Origin: Polymyxa betae
Taxonomy: Eukaryota; Endomyxa; Phytomyxea; Plasmodiophorida; Plasmodiophoridae
Reading direction: 5' to 3'
Assembly (NCBI GenBank): GCA_003693705.1
Contig: RBZT01000404.1
Coordinates: 1 to 64,000, forward strand
Length of the DNA: 64,000 nucleotides
This document shows positions 12,746 to 32,709 of this stretch, in pieces. The notes under the pieces are model-generated. The model had not been told where the DNA came from and made no database searches. It saw nothing but the letters and a program-made list of their open reading frames with translations. Both the position numbers and the translations under genes were made by a program. Position 1 is the stretch's first letter. The number at the start of each line of letters is the position of its first letter.

Positions 12746-14088
12746 TCATCGAGACGAATATGCAAATCCAGATAGAGACAGATCCAACCTGGAGCTGCTC
12801 TGCTGACCTGGTGCACGTCTACCGAATCTGATAGCAGGCTTTGGTTGTTGCCTTTGTTGGGATTTTGCCAGTCTTGGGACTAGACCAGGGAATACAATCT
12901 TGCCATCGATACGACATGCGACCTGGCAGTCGTCATGGCCCATGCGATCCCGAAGGCATTGCTCATGGACGTAATGATGGCATGGGATCTGTATCATGGC
13001 ATCTTGAATAGTGTTATTATTGCAGAATGAACATGTCATATTGGAGCAAGAAGCGGGTTCTAATATCCCTATTAACACATCTATTAAATGACCACCAGAC
13101 ATTGTCTTAAATCTCTGTCCGGGAGATGTCTTTACTAGAAAGGCAGCAAGACCATGATTATGACGTTGAATCTGAGTCCTAGCACAGACCTGACATAGAT
13201 CGTACTGATCACAACAGGCACAAGTGTATCGAGTGCCAAACACCCGTCCAGAGCATGCAGCACATTGAACATAACGATGAGGTGAGCGCCGAGTCTCTGG
13301 CAGTGAAGATCTTGATTTAGGTTGAGGAGGTAATGGAGCCCAATCTGGAGCTCGACATAATGGACATGATACCTGTATATGGTTAATGATCTCTGTTCTC
13401 CAATAAATAAACAACATTTAACAGATTCAAACTTCAATTGCAATTATGCCAGCAGTATTAAACTGATAGGAACACGATGACAATGAAATGGTAAGACAGA
13501 TATATATAGATATACCTGTTCTCCAATACTTTGTCTATATTGAGCCCATACTCTCATACATTGTTGATGTACACTATTACCACATCCACTCCGACAGAAT
13601 GTTAATGCTTGATCATCATTGATCAATACATCCATACATATTGAGCATACATCATCTGTACTAATCTCTCTCTGTAATACACCTTCTACTTCTCCTGTCA
13701 TCGCCTTCCCAGGTGCATTATTGACAGCGACTTTCCTCACTGTAGAATGCTTGCCAGATAGGATCTCAGCAACCTCTCGATCTAATAGAGCCTTCTGCCA
13801 TACTAATGGATTATCAGGAGATAGACGTAAGACTTTGATCATGATAAATAATAGATGTATACATAGATCTGCTGAATCTCTACATGAACATGTCTGTGGT
13901 GATCCTATTAGAACTCGATAACGTCTTTTACATGTGCTACTACTAGTTCCTTGATCATGAGACATCACTACAAATGAAGTAGGTCCTCTCTCTTGTACCA
14001 GATATAATCTTGATGTTTGTGCTGATGATATTCGTGCAGATACCAGATCTCCAGATTTATCTCTCCATGGATACATTCGTTGATCCAT
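12746..14088 (-). CDS. ZSWIM2: ZSWIM2-like E3 ubiquitin ligase (SWIM, RING, ZZ, RING)
   Basis: Two exons, 13516-14088 and 12746-13372, join in phase 0 across a 143-bp intron to give 399 residues. Domains in order: a SWIM zinc motif near residues 70-85 (CSCRDSADLCIH), and a first RING starting CSICMDVL at about 148 and completed across the intron by CPLCRAP. A ZZ-type finger follows (CAACSGRVFGTRYTCACC, then CQVCAR), then a second degenerate RING (CSFCNNN...PCHHYVHEQC). This order is the signature of ZSWIM2 (MEX), an E3 ligase studied in animal testis, where it interacts with UBE2D-type E2s. The protein is shorter than the human one (633 residues). It is convergent with the PRRC2-like gene, with only 83 bases between stops. 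Assignment to the family is strong from the domain order. Confidence 0.85.
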
Positions 14089-14222
14089 AGCTGTATTAAG
14101 TATACTTACTGTACTATGTGATCTGTTCCAATGACGAACATGTCCTTGTATGGTACAAATTCACTTCTCAATGATACATCCTATATATTCGTCATATTAA
14201 TACATATTGAATCTGTATACAA

Positions 14223-22854: not shown

Positions 22855-25079
22855 TTAACACGATAAATGATGGCTCAAAGACATGTCGTTACGGCTAAGC
22901 CAGCGAAGCGCTGAGATCTCTGCGAATGTTACTCCACCAATAAAACAGACCAGCACTACTTGCTTCCTCTTTTCTTGCACGCATTCTGTTGTATGATCTG
23001 CAAATAATTTTCCAGGAAGGGCTCCTAGCGCAAAGAAATAACAAACTAGAAACTGAGAGATACGGTGCACGCTACTGACCTAACGCGTCACGAATTGGAT
23101 TTTCTGACCAACCAGGTTTCAACGATGATTCTACTATCCTAATAGATAGTGGAGCATAACCATGATAGGGAAAGTGCATCGAGGTTGGAGTCGTAGGAGC
23201 AGATGATGTCGCAGGTTCCCCTATTAGCGAGAACCCAGCGCGAACGCTGGAGTATGTTGATTTTGATTCCCTCTTCAGAACGTAAGAGAGCAATCTAAGA
23301 TGAGATTCAGAGAAAGCAGACCTTGATAAGAAGCCCAGCGTTCTCAAGATTATCAAGAGCAACTATATACTTGAATCCGTCTAAAACAGGCGTAATTCAG
23401 CGGTGGGATGCATTAAACGTTCTCGACTCACAAGTTTGAAGGATCTCTCTTCGAATGAAATCAAACGTCTTTGCTTTGAGTCCGTTACCAACGACCGACA
23501 TTAAACATGCGATACGAAGAACTTGAGTCAATGGCGCCCTTTTACCGATGAGTTCTTCAGTGTACGATTCAGTTTCGGTCATATCGGCGTTTGAGATGAG
23601 ATCCAGTTGAGCTTGTGCATTCCGAAGGAATGAAGGCAACTTCGTCACCTAATTCTGCAAGTCGATATTTTGGAGATAAAATAATAATGAAGCGTAATGT
23701 CCAGGAAAAATTGAGATTAAAGATGATTTGCATCAGCCGAGAATAAAGACCTCTGCGATACGTTCAGCAATGCTGATGTGTGTCTGCAGCGCAGCATGTT
23801 CCGGCTGTACCGATTTAAACTTCTTCATGAAAGACGACATTTGTTGAATCGATTCTGCAGAATGTCGCTCCTCATACGTCTCTTGGATATGAGTGGCACG
23901 CTTTTTCAGAATGTACTTGATGGAATGGAAATTCACATCTCGAGTCTGTTTGAAGACGTCATCGTTAGAGTTTAAAGGAATTTTGGCCATTCCAGGTCGA
24001 CCCTTTGCTCCAATAGTTTTCTTATCAACTTCAATAAATCCGTTTGAGATCCCAATGATTTCATCCATAAGGCCCTCATAATTCACTGTCAAGAAATTAT
24101 CGCGAGCAGAAGCAAAACATTGCAGCATTACGCTGCTGTAATAAAACGCTGATCAAATCGACACGACGATCTAACAATATAATCTCGCTCACTTCCGAGG
24201 CGGCATTGTCAGGAATAGGTCGTTCATTCTTCATCTTGGAAAGCAGTTGTAATGTTCTAAAGGCCCAATCGCCTTTTCCGGAAATCTAATACACCTTTAG
24301 CAAAAATTGTGGATACAGGTATGTATGGAAAGCCTGAACCTTAGGAACTTTTCCAAACAGTTCTTCAATACTATGAATGGCCGACGCGGTGTAGAACAAG
24401 GTTGACGTATCTCCATCAACCACCATCTCCTTGAAACTGTTTTCCATACATAGGCTGATAACGTCGTCATCGCAAGGAAACAGCTGCGTACAAATCAATT
24501 ATCAGAAACGCATTGAATTGAAAATACCTCAAGTTTAAGCTCAATTCTAGTGACATTTCCATAAACTTTTAGCTGAACCAATGCTGCCTCACTTAGCAGA
24601 GTACATCGTGGAACGAAACAAATATAATGGCGACGTTCAGGTCCATATTGATGAAACTGAGCAGCTAATGTCTTCAGCGCACCAATGTCAGTGGCACGAA
24701 TGATATATATGATATTTGTAGATGAAGCTGGGATCGGCGAAGGGCTTAGTTCAAACATCGAATCCACTCCATGTTGTTTCAACAACGGGACCTCGATAAG
24801 TAAACCGAGCGGGCCGGATAAATTTGGGCCCAGCACCAGCGATTTTGGTCCATCAATCTCATCGAGGATCTGGGAGAAGCGTTCAGCAGATCGCTGGCGA
24901 ATCTGAATTAATGGAATGCAGGCGTTTCGAAGATGGCATGTCCCAGAAGACATGACAAAATGAGATCCGAATGGAAAGCTAAAGGCGCTGCCACCTGCGT
25001 GGCCTCATGTAACAGTAGCTACTAACCCATCACTTACCTTCATTTCACCTTCGAGTTTCACGATTCCATTGTTAACCAT
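22855..25079 (-). CDS. VPS33: VPS33, Sec1/Munc18 protein of HOPS/CORVET
   Basis: The Sec1-family subunit of the HOPS and CORVET tethers, which chaperones SNARE assembly at late endosomes and vacuoles. About six exons. Exon 1 (25079-25038) encodes MVNNGIVKLEGEMK and joins an exon starting at 24902 (IRQRSAERFSQILDEI). This fits the normal VPS33 N-terminus, though the intron there is longer than usual at 135 bp. Recognisable blocks include GPLGLLIEVPLLKQHGVDSM, CFVPRCTLLSEAAL, FPCDDDVISLCMENSFKE, NYEGLMDEIIGISNGF and FIGGVTFAEISALRWLS near the C-terminus. The gene is adjacent to the TPR-HSP70 gene on the same strand. I cannot decide between the VPS33A and VPS33B types. The mid-region looks slightly closer to A. 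Confidence 0.9.
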
Positions 25080-25209: not shown

Positions 25210-27368
25210 TTACAATTCGTCATCCAGACGGGCTTCGCGGTCAGCCTCACGTTCAGCCGCCCGAATTCTTTCAACGTCAATCTTTCGGTATTTGGCTGCT
25301 TCCTCCTGCATGGATTTGATTTCTTCGGAGCTTAAGCGGCCGGTGTCGTGTTGAACTTCAACATTGGCCTTGGCGCCAGAGATCTTGTCGTGGGCAGTAA
25401 CGGTTAGGAGACCGTTGGCATTCAAATCGAAGCAGACATCGATTTTAGGAACACCCTTCTTGGCTTTCTGGATGCCGTTGATGGTGAATTCACCAAGCAG
25501 GTGGTTACCATCAGTAAATCCACGCTCGCCTTCAAAGATACGAATGTCGACACTGGTTTGGTAATCTTCAACGGTGGTGAACTCGTGGGACTTTCGGCAA
25601 GGAATGGAGGTGTTACGAGGAACGACAACAGCGAAGACACCGTTCTGGCACTCAATACCAAGAGACAGAGGGACGACATCAACCAGAAGCAGATTGTCAG
25701 TAGCAGAGCTACGCATTCCAGAGAGGATAGCACCCTGGATAGCAGCACCGATAGCAACAGCCTCATCAGGGTTAACAGACTTGCAGAGAACCTTGCCACC
25801 AAAGTATTCGGAGAGGATCTGCTGAACACGAGGAATACGGGTGGAACCACCGACCAGAACGATTTCATCAACTTCAGATCGCTCACACTTGGCATCACGA
25901 AGGACGCGCTCGACGGAGACCATGCAGCGCTGGAAAGTCTTATCACAGACCTCCTCGAGAGTAGCACGGCTCAGAGGGATAGAGATCTCCTCCTCACCCT
26001 CGACGGATACCTCCACGACGGTCGATTGACGAGAAGACAGCTCTCGTTTGGCAGTCTCACAAGCAGAACGAAGCTTGCGGATAGCCTTGTCGTTGCCCTT
26101 AAAGATATCCTTGCCGCGTTCTTTGGCGACCTTGCTCTGGACCCATTCGCTGAGCTCCGTGTCGAAATCTTCACCACCAAGGTGGGTATCACCAGCAGTA
26201 GCCTTCACCTCGAAGACACCATTGTGGATATGAAGCAATGAAACATCTAAAACATCATCTTAGGTAATATAGTGCTTGGAAGATGACGGGCCTTACCGAA
26301 AGTACCACCACCCAGATCGAAGACGAGAACGTTGGTTGCAGGAACTTCTTCAACTTCTTCAGAAAGAGAGTTCTTGGCCTTGATATCAAGACCGTAAGCC
26401 AAGGCGGCGGCGGTAGGTTCATTGATAATACGAAGAACGTCAAGACCAGCAATGGCACCGGCATCCTTGGTAAGACGACGCTGAGCATCATTGAAGTAAG
26501 CAGGAACGGTAATGACAGCCTTCTTGACGGGTCGGCCAAGAGCAGCTTCAGCTGTTTGCTTCATCTCTTCAAGAACCATAGCCGAGATCTGTTCAGCCTG
26601 GAACTGACGGTTGTCGACTTCGATGACAGGGCGACCGTTGGAAGCATGTTCGGTGACCTTGAAAGGCATGGACTTGATCTCGTCCAGACATTCATGGTAT
26701 TGCTGACCAATGATACGCTTAATGTTGAAGAGAGTTCGCTGAGTGTTTCCAGCAGCCTGGCGCTTGGCGCTGTCACCAACAACACGGCGACCATCTTCAG
26801 TAAAAGCAACCCAAGAAGGGGTGGTCAGGTTGCCATTAGCATTGGGCAGAACGTGAGCCTTGCCATCTTTCCAGACAGCAACACAGGAGAAGGTGGTACC
26901 CAGATCGATACCGATGACGGGCTCGTTGGCGAGTTCATGCTTGCTGATGGCGTCCTGAACTTGCTCGAGGCTGTCGAGAAGCTGGCGGCTTTCTCTGTCG
27001 TGTTCCAGACCCGATTCATAGGCAGTCTTGGCGTCATACAAACGGTCAAGCTTGAAAAGGGCATAGCCAAGACGGAGCCAGGCTTTAGACCAGGTCGGGT
27101 CCAGATCCACAGCAGCCTGAGCATCAGCAGCAGCTTCATCGAATTTGGACAAAGAAGCATAAGCAGCAGATCGGTTCGAGAAGAAGACCTTGTCTGTAGA
27201 GTCGGCTTTGATCGCCTGAGAAAAGTGATGGACAGCGCCTCGGAAATCGCCCTTTGAGAAGGCTTCATTTCCCTTGGCCTTGGCCTTGGCAGCCCATACT
27301 TTAGCCTCTGGAGTACCAGCTTCAGGCATCAGGTTCAGATCACGCATTGATTGGTGCAGATTCGACAT
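25210..27368 (-). CDS. TPR-HSP70 fusion chaperone
   Basis: Two exons (26297-27368 and 25210-26246) with a 50-bp intron inside GGGTF|DVSLL, giving 702 residues. Residues about 25-140 are three Hop/STI1-like TPRs. All five dicarboxylate-clamp positions of Hop TPR1 are present (K30, N34, N65, K95, R99). An HSP70 ATPase domain starts at residue 153 ([10 protein letters not shown]), with phosphate-2 (VFDLGGGTF) and adenosine ([12 protein letters not shown]) motifs and a substrate-binding beta domain. The protein then ends in EARLDDEL, about 100 residues short of a normal HSP70: most of the helical lid and the EEVD tail are gone. I chose the ATG at 27368 because the 31 codons upstream in frame look like leader sequence. 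There is no signal peptide, so it is probably cytosolic. Confidence 0.93.
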
Positions 27369-28513: not shown

Positions 28514-31500
28514 ATGGTACGGTCCTATCGAGTCGCCAGCTTTCTTGCTCGTTGTCGCGTCACGATATGGGCAGCATGTACAGCCTGGAGCCCATCAACG
28601 GTCAGATCTTGTCAGCATCGTGTCTTGCTCTGTTGTGACAGCTGGAATAAAGTGAATCTGCACGACCTCAATCATGCACTACGACAGCTGCGAAAGGTCG
28701 AGCCAGGGTTGGCGATCGGTGCCATAACCCGAGACCAGTTTATTACTAGTTTCACTTGTGTGCCTGATTCTGCATCTGTTTTCGATCGATTTGATTCCGA
28801 TGGAGACCGACGTAATGATGTTGCTGAACTACTCTCTATATTGATATTATGTGCTGATGGTGATCTCGCTGGCAAATGCACAAGTTGGTCACTGGATGCC
28901 ATATGCTGTCTGGACATCCCAATTGATGTTATTGTTTATCGCCAGGTGTGTTCCAGTTATACGATTTCGATCAGAATGGAATACTATCAAGAAGTGAGCT
29001 CGTACTATTAATTCGTGGTATGACAGCTGTTCCAGGATAGAATTATTTTTGCTAATTATGATGTCATCAGGCACATTACGAGCATTAGCCAAGGCGTCAT
29101 CATCATTACGTATGCCACGTCTGTACATCATTGAAGAAACGGTTCAGAATGTGAGCAAAATTTCACTGCTATATGAACCATTGATATTGTGATTGATAGA
29201 TTCTGGAGGCAGATCCTCATGATATCCAGGAATCGGTATCGATGACCAGATTCACACAATGGTGTCTTAAATCGGCCACATTCACATCTTTAATCGAATC
29301 CATTCGTAAACCGAGTCCTGTTCCCAGTCTGGTTTTCGATTCGATCGAGGAGAATTGCATCGGCGGCCACAGCAAATCTCTGGTATATATATGTTGAGAT
29401 TGCAACAATACGGCTGATACGAGATTAACTATCATGATGTAGGGCCGAATTCGAGGTCGATACACCTGCTATGAACCGACACCCGTAATATAATGAACTA
29501 ATGTTATCAGGTTGTTGGAGAGAAGGTCTATGTGCAGGTCTAAATTCAGCTGATAATCCTCAGGTTAGTGCCTCCAATCATCTCTATCTACAATCTAAGC
29601 CCGTGTTGTGCCTGAACCACAGTTTTTACTTCGTCTGAAATATCGATCCAGAGCCCGCTCCTCATCCCAAATGGTCAGCATCGTTTTAGAACGTGATCGT
29701 CTCTGCTCGGAATCGTCATCGTCACATACGCCTATGTACCTGTATCTATTCCGAGCCAAAAGCCGTTCATCTGGTCGTCTCCTGGATCTGTCATCGAACG
29801 AGCTTGTGGCAGTGACCCAGGCAGTGACAAGTGACACAGCTCATATCAATGTTAAACCTGTAGATAGTGATGTGTATATAATAATGGCGTGCCTTCAAAT
29901 ACGCAATCATACAGCCTCCTTCCATGTCAATGTTCATTCACAGGGACATCTAAGACCTTATCTATATGAACTTCCATTCATACAGACTCGTATCTGTAAG
30001 CTATGGTCAGGACAACATGCCAAGACGCCTCCCATCTCGGTCCAATTGGCGCCCAAACAATCGATTCGCATCGATCTCATTCAGCATAATTCGCCAGCGA
30101 TGGCGTCTTTAGATGCAGAGATGGATCGTGGAGCCAAGGTCGCCTTACGCTCTATTGACCGTCATGATCGTGGACGATATCTTGTACAGAATCTCTCGCC
30201 TGATTGGCAGTATATTAGGCTATCTCCGAAATCGTCATCTACAAAGGGTTCGTTCGAGATCGTTATCATATCCGATGATAATGTCAATGGCCGTCCTAAA
30301 ATCATGCCTTCGTAAGAATCAGCTGTAGTATAAGTTTCTCTTTTCAAATTGGTTGTTTTTTGTGTTTTACTTCTAGTTTTTGAAACGATGGTTTAGAGCG
30401 AATTCGACTGTGGTTGGCTACTGGCGCCCAGACGTCCTTCGGCAGATCTTGGTCCGATTTGTTGAACCGAAATCCGGCCTCGAACGCGTTCAGTTCGTCT
30501 TACAACTTCATGATATGAGAAGCAGCGAATCTAGCCTGTGTCTATGTTTATATCGAGTTGAAGAAGCGATAGGTCAAGTTAATCTATGTCGGCTACAAGT
30601 GCTGGCCCAATCTAGATTTGTATCTGGGACGGATTCAGTGTCATTAGATGTATCTCTGGCTACATCACAGATCTATATATTAGTCCCAATTATAGACAAA
30701 TCTCTTGATTTAACTCAGTTTACAGTGACATGTCAATCTCGATTTCAAGATCAGCTTCAGCTCCAGCTATTACCAGATCTATATCGAGTATCGGCCACTG
30801 GAACTTGTTCGGATGACGTCCAATACAATCAGCCACAGTTTCTTATCTCATGCTCTACTTTCGTCATGGTCAGGATCGCCATCATTGCCGATCAGGAGCA
30901 ACACATGTATGGATGTCGTCTGTATCGTTCAGGGAGTGGATCACGAACTGCTTTTCGACGCAAATTTCTCGTTGATGAAGACCTTTTAATGGAATCGGAT
31001 CAAGGTGGATCTGTTATACTTTACATGGAGCCCAGATTGACATCCTCCATCATAATTGTTATTCATGGGCCTCCTGGGCACTTCAAAATCGTACGTATGA
31101 TTTTGTTATGACCAAGACATACCAATTCAGTGACTTTTCCTTTCAGAATGTGACCTGTAGCTTACCTGTCAAATTTGAGCAATTATCGGGATCAGATGGA
31201 CCGAGACCGGTCGTTGAAGCGACTTGCGACGATGGCTTCTTATCTATGAAAAACGATTCCATTGTGAAGGTCTGCGAGCGTGCCGAGCTCAGATTCACAG
31301 ATTCTGAGTTCATTCCATCGCCTTCAACGCTCGGCTATGGCATAGACGATTGCCTGCGAGGATGGATGCGAATGGCAGATATTGCAGATCAGCCGCGTCT
31401 ATTCGATGAAGTCATCGATCTACATGATATAGAGATACACATGAAGGCATTCAGTTGCATTGTTCAGGCATTATCTGCTCTGGCTGTAAAAACTGATCTG

Positions 31501-32709
31501 ACATCATTCCTTCGTCGGATCTTCTCTACGAAGCAGGTCTCATACTGGTCTGTCTACAATTTGAATCTGTATCATATCGAGCTTCAGAAATGGGTTCAAA
31601 TTGTCACTGATGATTATGTCCCTGTTGACTATTCGCATCAGCCCTACTTCGTTCGATATCGTGATCCGGAAGTTATCTGGTTACCTTTACTTGTCAAAGC
31701 ATTGGCTAAATTACATGGAAGCTACAAGAACCTGAGTGAGCAGACCGATGTTGGCCGCCTGCTTGAGATCTTAACTGGTGAAAAACCTCTAGTATTGACC
31801 GATTTCGATATCGATCGCATCGCTGTGATATGCCCAGATCCTAGTTTTAGCATTCTCGCCATCCCGCATCTATCCAACACCAATATAGATTTGCTATTGC
31901 CATGGCATCAAGCTTATATTCTCAGTGAAATACGCCAGTCGAATGATGGACAAATACGATTAGCGGTTGTTCGACGCATTTGGGGTCGATTTGAATCATT
32001 TCGAGGAAAGTGGGCCAATGAAAGCGATCTTTGGACGTCTGTCTTGAAGAGCGATCTGGGATTTGATGAAATCGGCACCGATTCATTCTTCGCCGATCCT
32101 GTTGAGCTGGCGTTGATGTTTAAATACGTCTATATTGTTAGAGTCCCCAAGCCCAGCAATATTTTTGTAAGGCTTGTATCAGTGTGCTGCATCAAATATG
32201 CTAATAATAGGATTTGCTTGTAGAAATTTCTGACGAGCCAGGAAGGTGTATGGCACAAGTCACTATCAAATGGTATTGGATCTGTTCACAATCCGCAGTG
32301 GATGTTCGCAACGAAGCGTGTCTCTGTCGTCATCGCATTATCAACTGGATTCCGAGATAGAACGCACCAGGCCACCATAAGCTTGATTCTATGCCGAATT
32401 CGAGGCAAGCTTCCTTTGACCGACCTCAATGAACAGGACATCATTTCCAAAAACGATGCTGAAGGAAGTAAATGCAGTCAAATTGAAGTGACATTGCCTG
32501 GATCACGATCTGGAAAACCAGCTTTGTATGGGATTATTGCTTGGTTTGGCGGTCTGCCTGGCGAAAATCTTCAGGCAGCTTTCACTTTAACCGTTAAATC
32601 CACCGAGCGTATATTTCTGTCACGTTCACAGTTTGTTACTCAAGAATTGGCAGCTGACGTGCTCAGGAATAGACCCGACATTCTGAGGATACCCACTCTT
32701 ATTCGCTAG
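28514..32709 (+). CDS. EF-hand and calpain-like pseudoprotease
   Basis: Multi-exon gene, about 1,250 residues. Near the N-terminus are two canonical EF-hand loops, DSDGDRRNDVAE (about 28794-28830) and, across an intron, DFDQNGILSRSE (about 28963-28998). Calpain beta-sandwich (domain III)-like segments follow (EPQFLLRLKYRSRA at about 29611; WFRANSTVVGYWRP at about 30386). A calpain protease core then spans about 31,270-32,130: FTDSEFIPSPSTLGY, KWVQIVTDDYVP, LLVKALAKLHGSY, and the RNPWG-type region reading RRIWGRFESFRGKW. A last domain-III-like segment closes the protein. By eye the catalytic Cys aligns with Ser (codon 31453), the His with Gln (31908) and the Asn with Arg (31975). It is probably an inactive calcium-regulated scaffold. 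The start is uncertain: the frame is open from 28514, and an ATG at 28567 is an alternative. Confidence 0.75.

Follow-up and report, generated by a model that had tools for sequence, protein, structure and literature searches.

In a 64-kb window, the whole stretch of DNA analyzed here (positions 1 to 64,000, forward strand, of contig RBZT01000404.1 in the Polymyxa betae assembly GCA_003693705.1), we identified a gene for an HSP70 that carries a tetratricopeptide repeat (TPR) domain at its N terminus. Sequence comparisons indicate that this layout is real, conserved, and not peculiar to this genome, and it is undescribed in the literature that we searched: the titles and abstract beginnings of open-licence papers yielded no account of an HSP70 that begins with a TPR domain. 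The interpretation to which we lean is that the TPR-HSP70 is an accessory chaperone with its own branch among HSP70s, in which a carboxylate clamp similar to that of Hop TPR1 stands ahead of a tail-less, short-lid motor and docks in trans. In the textbook account of HSP70-HSP90 cooperation, a separate adaptor grips the EEVD tails, and the TPR domains of SGT, RPAP3, CHIP, PP5, and SPAG1 are joined to other kinds of module, not to an HSP70 motor.

The gene lies on the minus strand (27368 to 25210). As the first-pass annotation of this DNA had proposed, a single frame interrupted by one 50-bp intron runs from the TPRs into HSP70; splicing gives a product of 702 residues ending in EARLDDEL, in which Pfam profiles detect both parts. 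Its main features are the following.

26297 to 27368, minus strand: exon 1, with the start codon, the TPR domain, and the first third of HSP70 (residues 1 to 357)
26247 to 26296, minus strand: 50-bp GT-AG intron, across which splicing restores the conserved motif GGGTF-DVSLL
25210 to 26246, minus strand: exon 2, with the remainder of the ATPase, the interdomain linker LLLVDV, the substrate-binding beta domain, the short lid, and the stop codon
26934 to 27293, minus strand: three-repeat TPR domain plus cap helix, Hop TPR1-like (about residues 26 to 145)
25213 to 25341, minus strand: short lid (residues 660 to 702), a single helix in the predicted model of the Plasmodiophora orthologue, without EEVD

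Exon 1 is matched by HSP70 (6.4e-82) and TPR_1 (2.1e-14) and exon 2 by the rest of HSP70 (2.1e-112), with positions 1 to 198 of the 599-position HSP70 profile falling in the first exon and 199 to 536 in the second. A wrong gene model or assembly could in principle have linked a neighboring TPR gene to an HSP70 gene, but the TPR-HSP70 junction sits within one unbroken exon, and the fusion is therefore independent of the intron. As far as the layout is concerned, the co-linear homologues described next refute the notion of an artefact, and we give it practically no credence.

Three database searches were seeded with the TPR part and the beginning of HSP70 from the query (residues 1 to 165), P0028 (1 to 150; its species code is presumably that of Mesostigma viride), and P0152 of Plasmodiophora brassicae (20 to 215), and we took all 93 matches of one search, the best 120 of 889 of another, and the best 120 of 4060 of the third. 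Among the matches listed, to which all counts of homologues below refer, 141 of the 279 proteins fetched have a TPR match ahead of an HSP70 match, and in 128 of these the HSP70 part is nearly complete; three HSP70s in which the TPR match is not clear (P0275, P0277, and P0279) were excluded from the fusion counts. Seven of the fusions are MMETSP entries, in which both parts occur in an open reading frame of a transcript. The first-pass annotation's view that it knew of no standard family with this layout is therefore not supported. Database names of such fusions include "Heat shock 70 kDa protein 18."

The closest homologue is P0152, with identities of 75% in the HSP70 part and 56% in the TPR part. 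Its source label, "mitochondrion," looks wrong, as the longest contig carrying it measures 1.9 Mb. Eight fusions come from named organisms: P. brassicae, the chlorarachniophyte Amorphochlora amoebiformis (P0258), the oomycetes Saprolegnia diclina, Saprolegnia parasitica, Phytophthora nicotianae, Bremia lactucae, and Pythium oligandrum, and the chytrid Batrachochytrium salamandrivorans BASA81 (P0159), the last being a long-lid protein known from a single strain and entry and possibly a contaminant. The Plasmodiophora, Amorphochlora, oomycete, and Mesostigma proteins share with the query the co-linear layout, the clamp, and the absence of EEVD; they differ in the length of the stretch between TPR and HSP70, in a change of clamp residue N34 (Amorphochlora), and in a longer, likewise tail-less, lid (oomycetes).

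A tree of the HSP70 parts (47 rows) separates 41 fusions from six canonical HSP70s, five of them from the same genome and one entered by hand, with support of 100/99; a previous 58-row tree, which included 52 fusions, shows the same split (support of 99). Within the fusion branch of the 47-row tree, after the relabelling of five rows explained below, 18 short-lid proteins form one clade (100/100), as did the six short-lid rows of the earlier tree (100). A tree of the TPR parts alone did not resolve a single origin.

The TPR domain resembles TPR1 of Hop/Sti1 in having three TPRs and all five clamp residues, spaced as in Hop, with 38 to 40% identity and superposition at 0.9 to 1.0 Å; it differs in being the only TPR domain of its protein, in lacking DP domains, and in its covalent attachment to HSP70. 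In a gap-free alignment, the five residues listed below match Hop positions 8, 12, 43, 73, and 77, which we take to be the clamp residues of Hop; each assignment rests on this alignment and on conservation in the family.

27279 to 27281, minus strand: clamp residue K30
27267 to 27269, minus strand: clamp residue N34
27174 to 27176, minus strand: clamp residue N65
27084 to 27086, minus strand: clamp residue K95
27072 to 27074, minus strand: clamp residue R99

Across the TPR-HSP70 family, these five columns are conserved at a mean of 98%, against 54% over all 118 TPR columns, which bears out the earlier claim that the clamp is intact. Their spacing also agrees with the consensus Lys5/Asn9-Asn6-Lys2/Arg6 published for the clamp of a three-motif TPR (PMC2939883).

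The connection between the two parts, described by the first-pass annotation as a linker at residues 140 to 153, is present but shorter than this, being partly cap helix. A predicted model of the query's TPR domain has a cap helix that extends to residue 145. In the model of P0152, this helix (131 to 150) leads almost straight into the ATPase domain, the first strand of which starts at 154 (about 151 in the query). Such close coupling is not general, because, across the family, the distance between the position that aligns with query residue 120 and the IDLGT motif ranges from 30 to 87 residues (33 in the query).

By sequence, the HSP70 part is a complete motor. All 131 sequences longer than 600 aa retain the six ATPase residues checked, as well as two positions that contact J-proteins, and the linker aspartate is kept in 130 of these. 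The query resembles canonical cytosolic HSP70 (HSPA8/Ssa type) in its ATPase residues, interdomain linker, and substrate-binding beta domain and is 52 to 54% identical to the three cytosolic HSP70 copies of the same genome, from which it differs in the N-terminal TPR, the separate branch in the tree, the lid, and the tail. The P0152 model (predicted local distance difference test [pLDDT] score, 90) comprises the TPR, the ATPase domain, the beta sandwich, and a single final helix (672 to 705). Among the structures that it matches are lid-truncated forms of DnaK, BiP, and Hsc70, but also longer HSP70s.

Counted from the GRLS motif onward, the query has 43 residues, compared with 143 in the IEEVD-ending cytosolic HSP70 of the same genome and 129 to 143 in four canonical HSP70s of that genome, so that the lid is indeed short. 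By this residue count, the 131 sequences fall into two groups, one of 28 to 52 residues (n = 44, query included) and one of 74 to 147 (n = 87), in which the longest few members attain the canonical length. Labels based instead on the end position of HSPA8 had misplaced five short proteins (P0065, P0153, P0184, P0197, and P0258), the last residues of which aligned far downstream, and these were relabelled. The loss of the EEVD tail likewise extends beyond the query: none of 142 family sequences ends in EEVD, although some database entries may be incomplete. A further downstream exon carrying a lid and EEVD is unlikely, because P0152, with a nearly identical end (EPRLDDE versus EARLDDEL), terminates at the same place.

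The last four residues, DDEL, are similar to HDEL and could suggest an HSP70 retained in the lumen of the endoplasmic reticulum. Nevertheless, the first 25 residues show no hydrophobic signal stretch by eye, the orthologue terminates in RLDDE and lacks the final L, and a distinct BiP-like HSP70 of this genome (L011) ends in HDEL; we rejected this candidate and regard it as highly improbable.

Potential partners are encoded in the same genome. Two cytosolic HSP70s end in IEEVD (L009) and VEEVD (L012), and L010 is a third cytosolic-type copy; L013 to L015 are presumably the mitochondrial-, HSP110-, and GRP170-type copies. The main HSP90 frame (L016; G000:C452) covers nearly the whole profile and ends in TMEDVD rather than the usual MEEVD, and contig C217 carries a separate Hop-like gene that matches TPR and DP profiles. 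With EEVD-type partners and a Hop-like gene both at hand, the fusion does not replace Hop. TPR cochaperones use the clamp to bind IEEVD and MEEVD tails, and two cochaperone classes vie for the motif (PMC8913300). An HSP70 equipped with the clamp but lacking such a tail should therefore be the gripper in this network rather than the gripped.

On these grounds, we propose that the TPR clamp would act in trans and grip the C-terminal, EEVD-type tail of a different chaperone. The most probable target is the (I/V)EEVD of canonical cytosolic HSP70, with the MEDVD of HSP90 as a second candidate. Docking would bring a further HSP70 motor, driven by J-proteins, to a client-loaded chaperone, and the occupied tail would thereby be closed to Hop and CHIP. 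Because the TPR-HSP70 has no EEVD of its own, neither Hop nor CHIP nor J-proteins that depend on EEVD would be able to hold it, and its short lid may permit quick release of clients. If HSP90 were instead the main target, the TPR would hold the HSP90 tail, and clients would be passed to HSP90 without Hop. We consider this rather doubtful: Hop TPR1 is the nearest match of the query TPR (73.6 bits, versus 36.9 bits for the HSP90-binding TPR2A) and the best match for 86 of the 88 TPR parts compared, and the Hop-like gene leaves no gap to fill.

Another possibility is that the TPR targets the HSP70 to a fixed site, such as the flagellum, by binding the C terminus of a protein other than a chaperone. 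Consistent with this, canonical HSP70A occurs in the central pair of Chlamydomonas (7sqc and 7n6g are among the structural matches), and flagellated stages are found in most of the named fusion-bearing organisms; in Bremia lactucae, zoospores are rarely made, and its member (P0229) is about 155 residues shorter than that of Pythium, with a mid-protein gap that spans the last portion of the ATPase domain and some of the substrate-binding domain. However, flagella are common among protists, so that their co-occurrence says little, most matches lack an organism name, and the gap in the Bremia protein could reflect either a faulty gene model or a real deletion. Localization of this kind thus appears unlikely.

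The upstream regions were compared for GAAnnTTC/TTCnnGAA pairs, of which about 0.5 are expected by chance per 1 kb, as a rough estimate only. The 1 kb upstream of the TPR-HSP70 contains one such pair, compared with three for L009 and six for L012, which is weak evidence against heat inducibility of the fusion. The six GAAnnTTC pairs of L012, at -220 to -84 from the HSP70 start, form an apparent heat-shock element array.

Elsewhere in the window, a frame with a Sec1-family match (24495 to 25004, minus strand; E = 2.2e-8) lies directly downstream of the TPR-HSP70, a calpain family cysteine protease domain (Peptidase_C2, E = 2.1e-25) is found at 30979 to 32223 on the plus strand, and adjoining frames at 12746 to 14160 on the minus strand contain SWIM, RING-like (under its cut-off), and ZZ zinc fingers, an arrangement that to us is reminiscent of ZSWIM2.

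More broadly, we tentatively entertain the idea of an ancient, possibly early-eukaryotic, class of tail-less HSP70s that would grip EEVD tails, couple two HSP70 motors, or HSP70 and HSP90, without Hop, and escape triage by CHIP, with a short-lid branch that would cycle fast. Among the matches listed, none of the eight fusions with an organism name belongs to an animal, yeast, or land plant, and the usual model organisms may have concealed this branch of HSP70s. If the proposed docking is correct, the TPR-HSP70 would work shielded from Hop and CHIP, and the recurrence of an HSP70 with the gripper and without the tail would turn the usual adaptor logic around.
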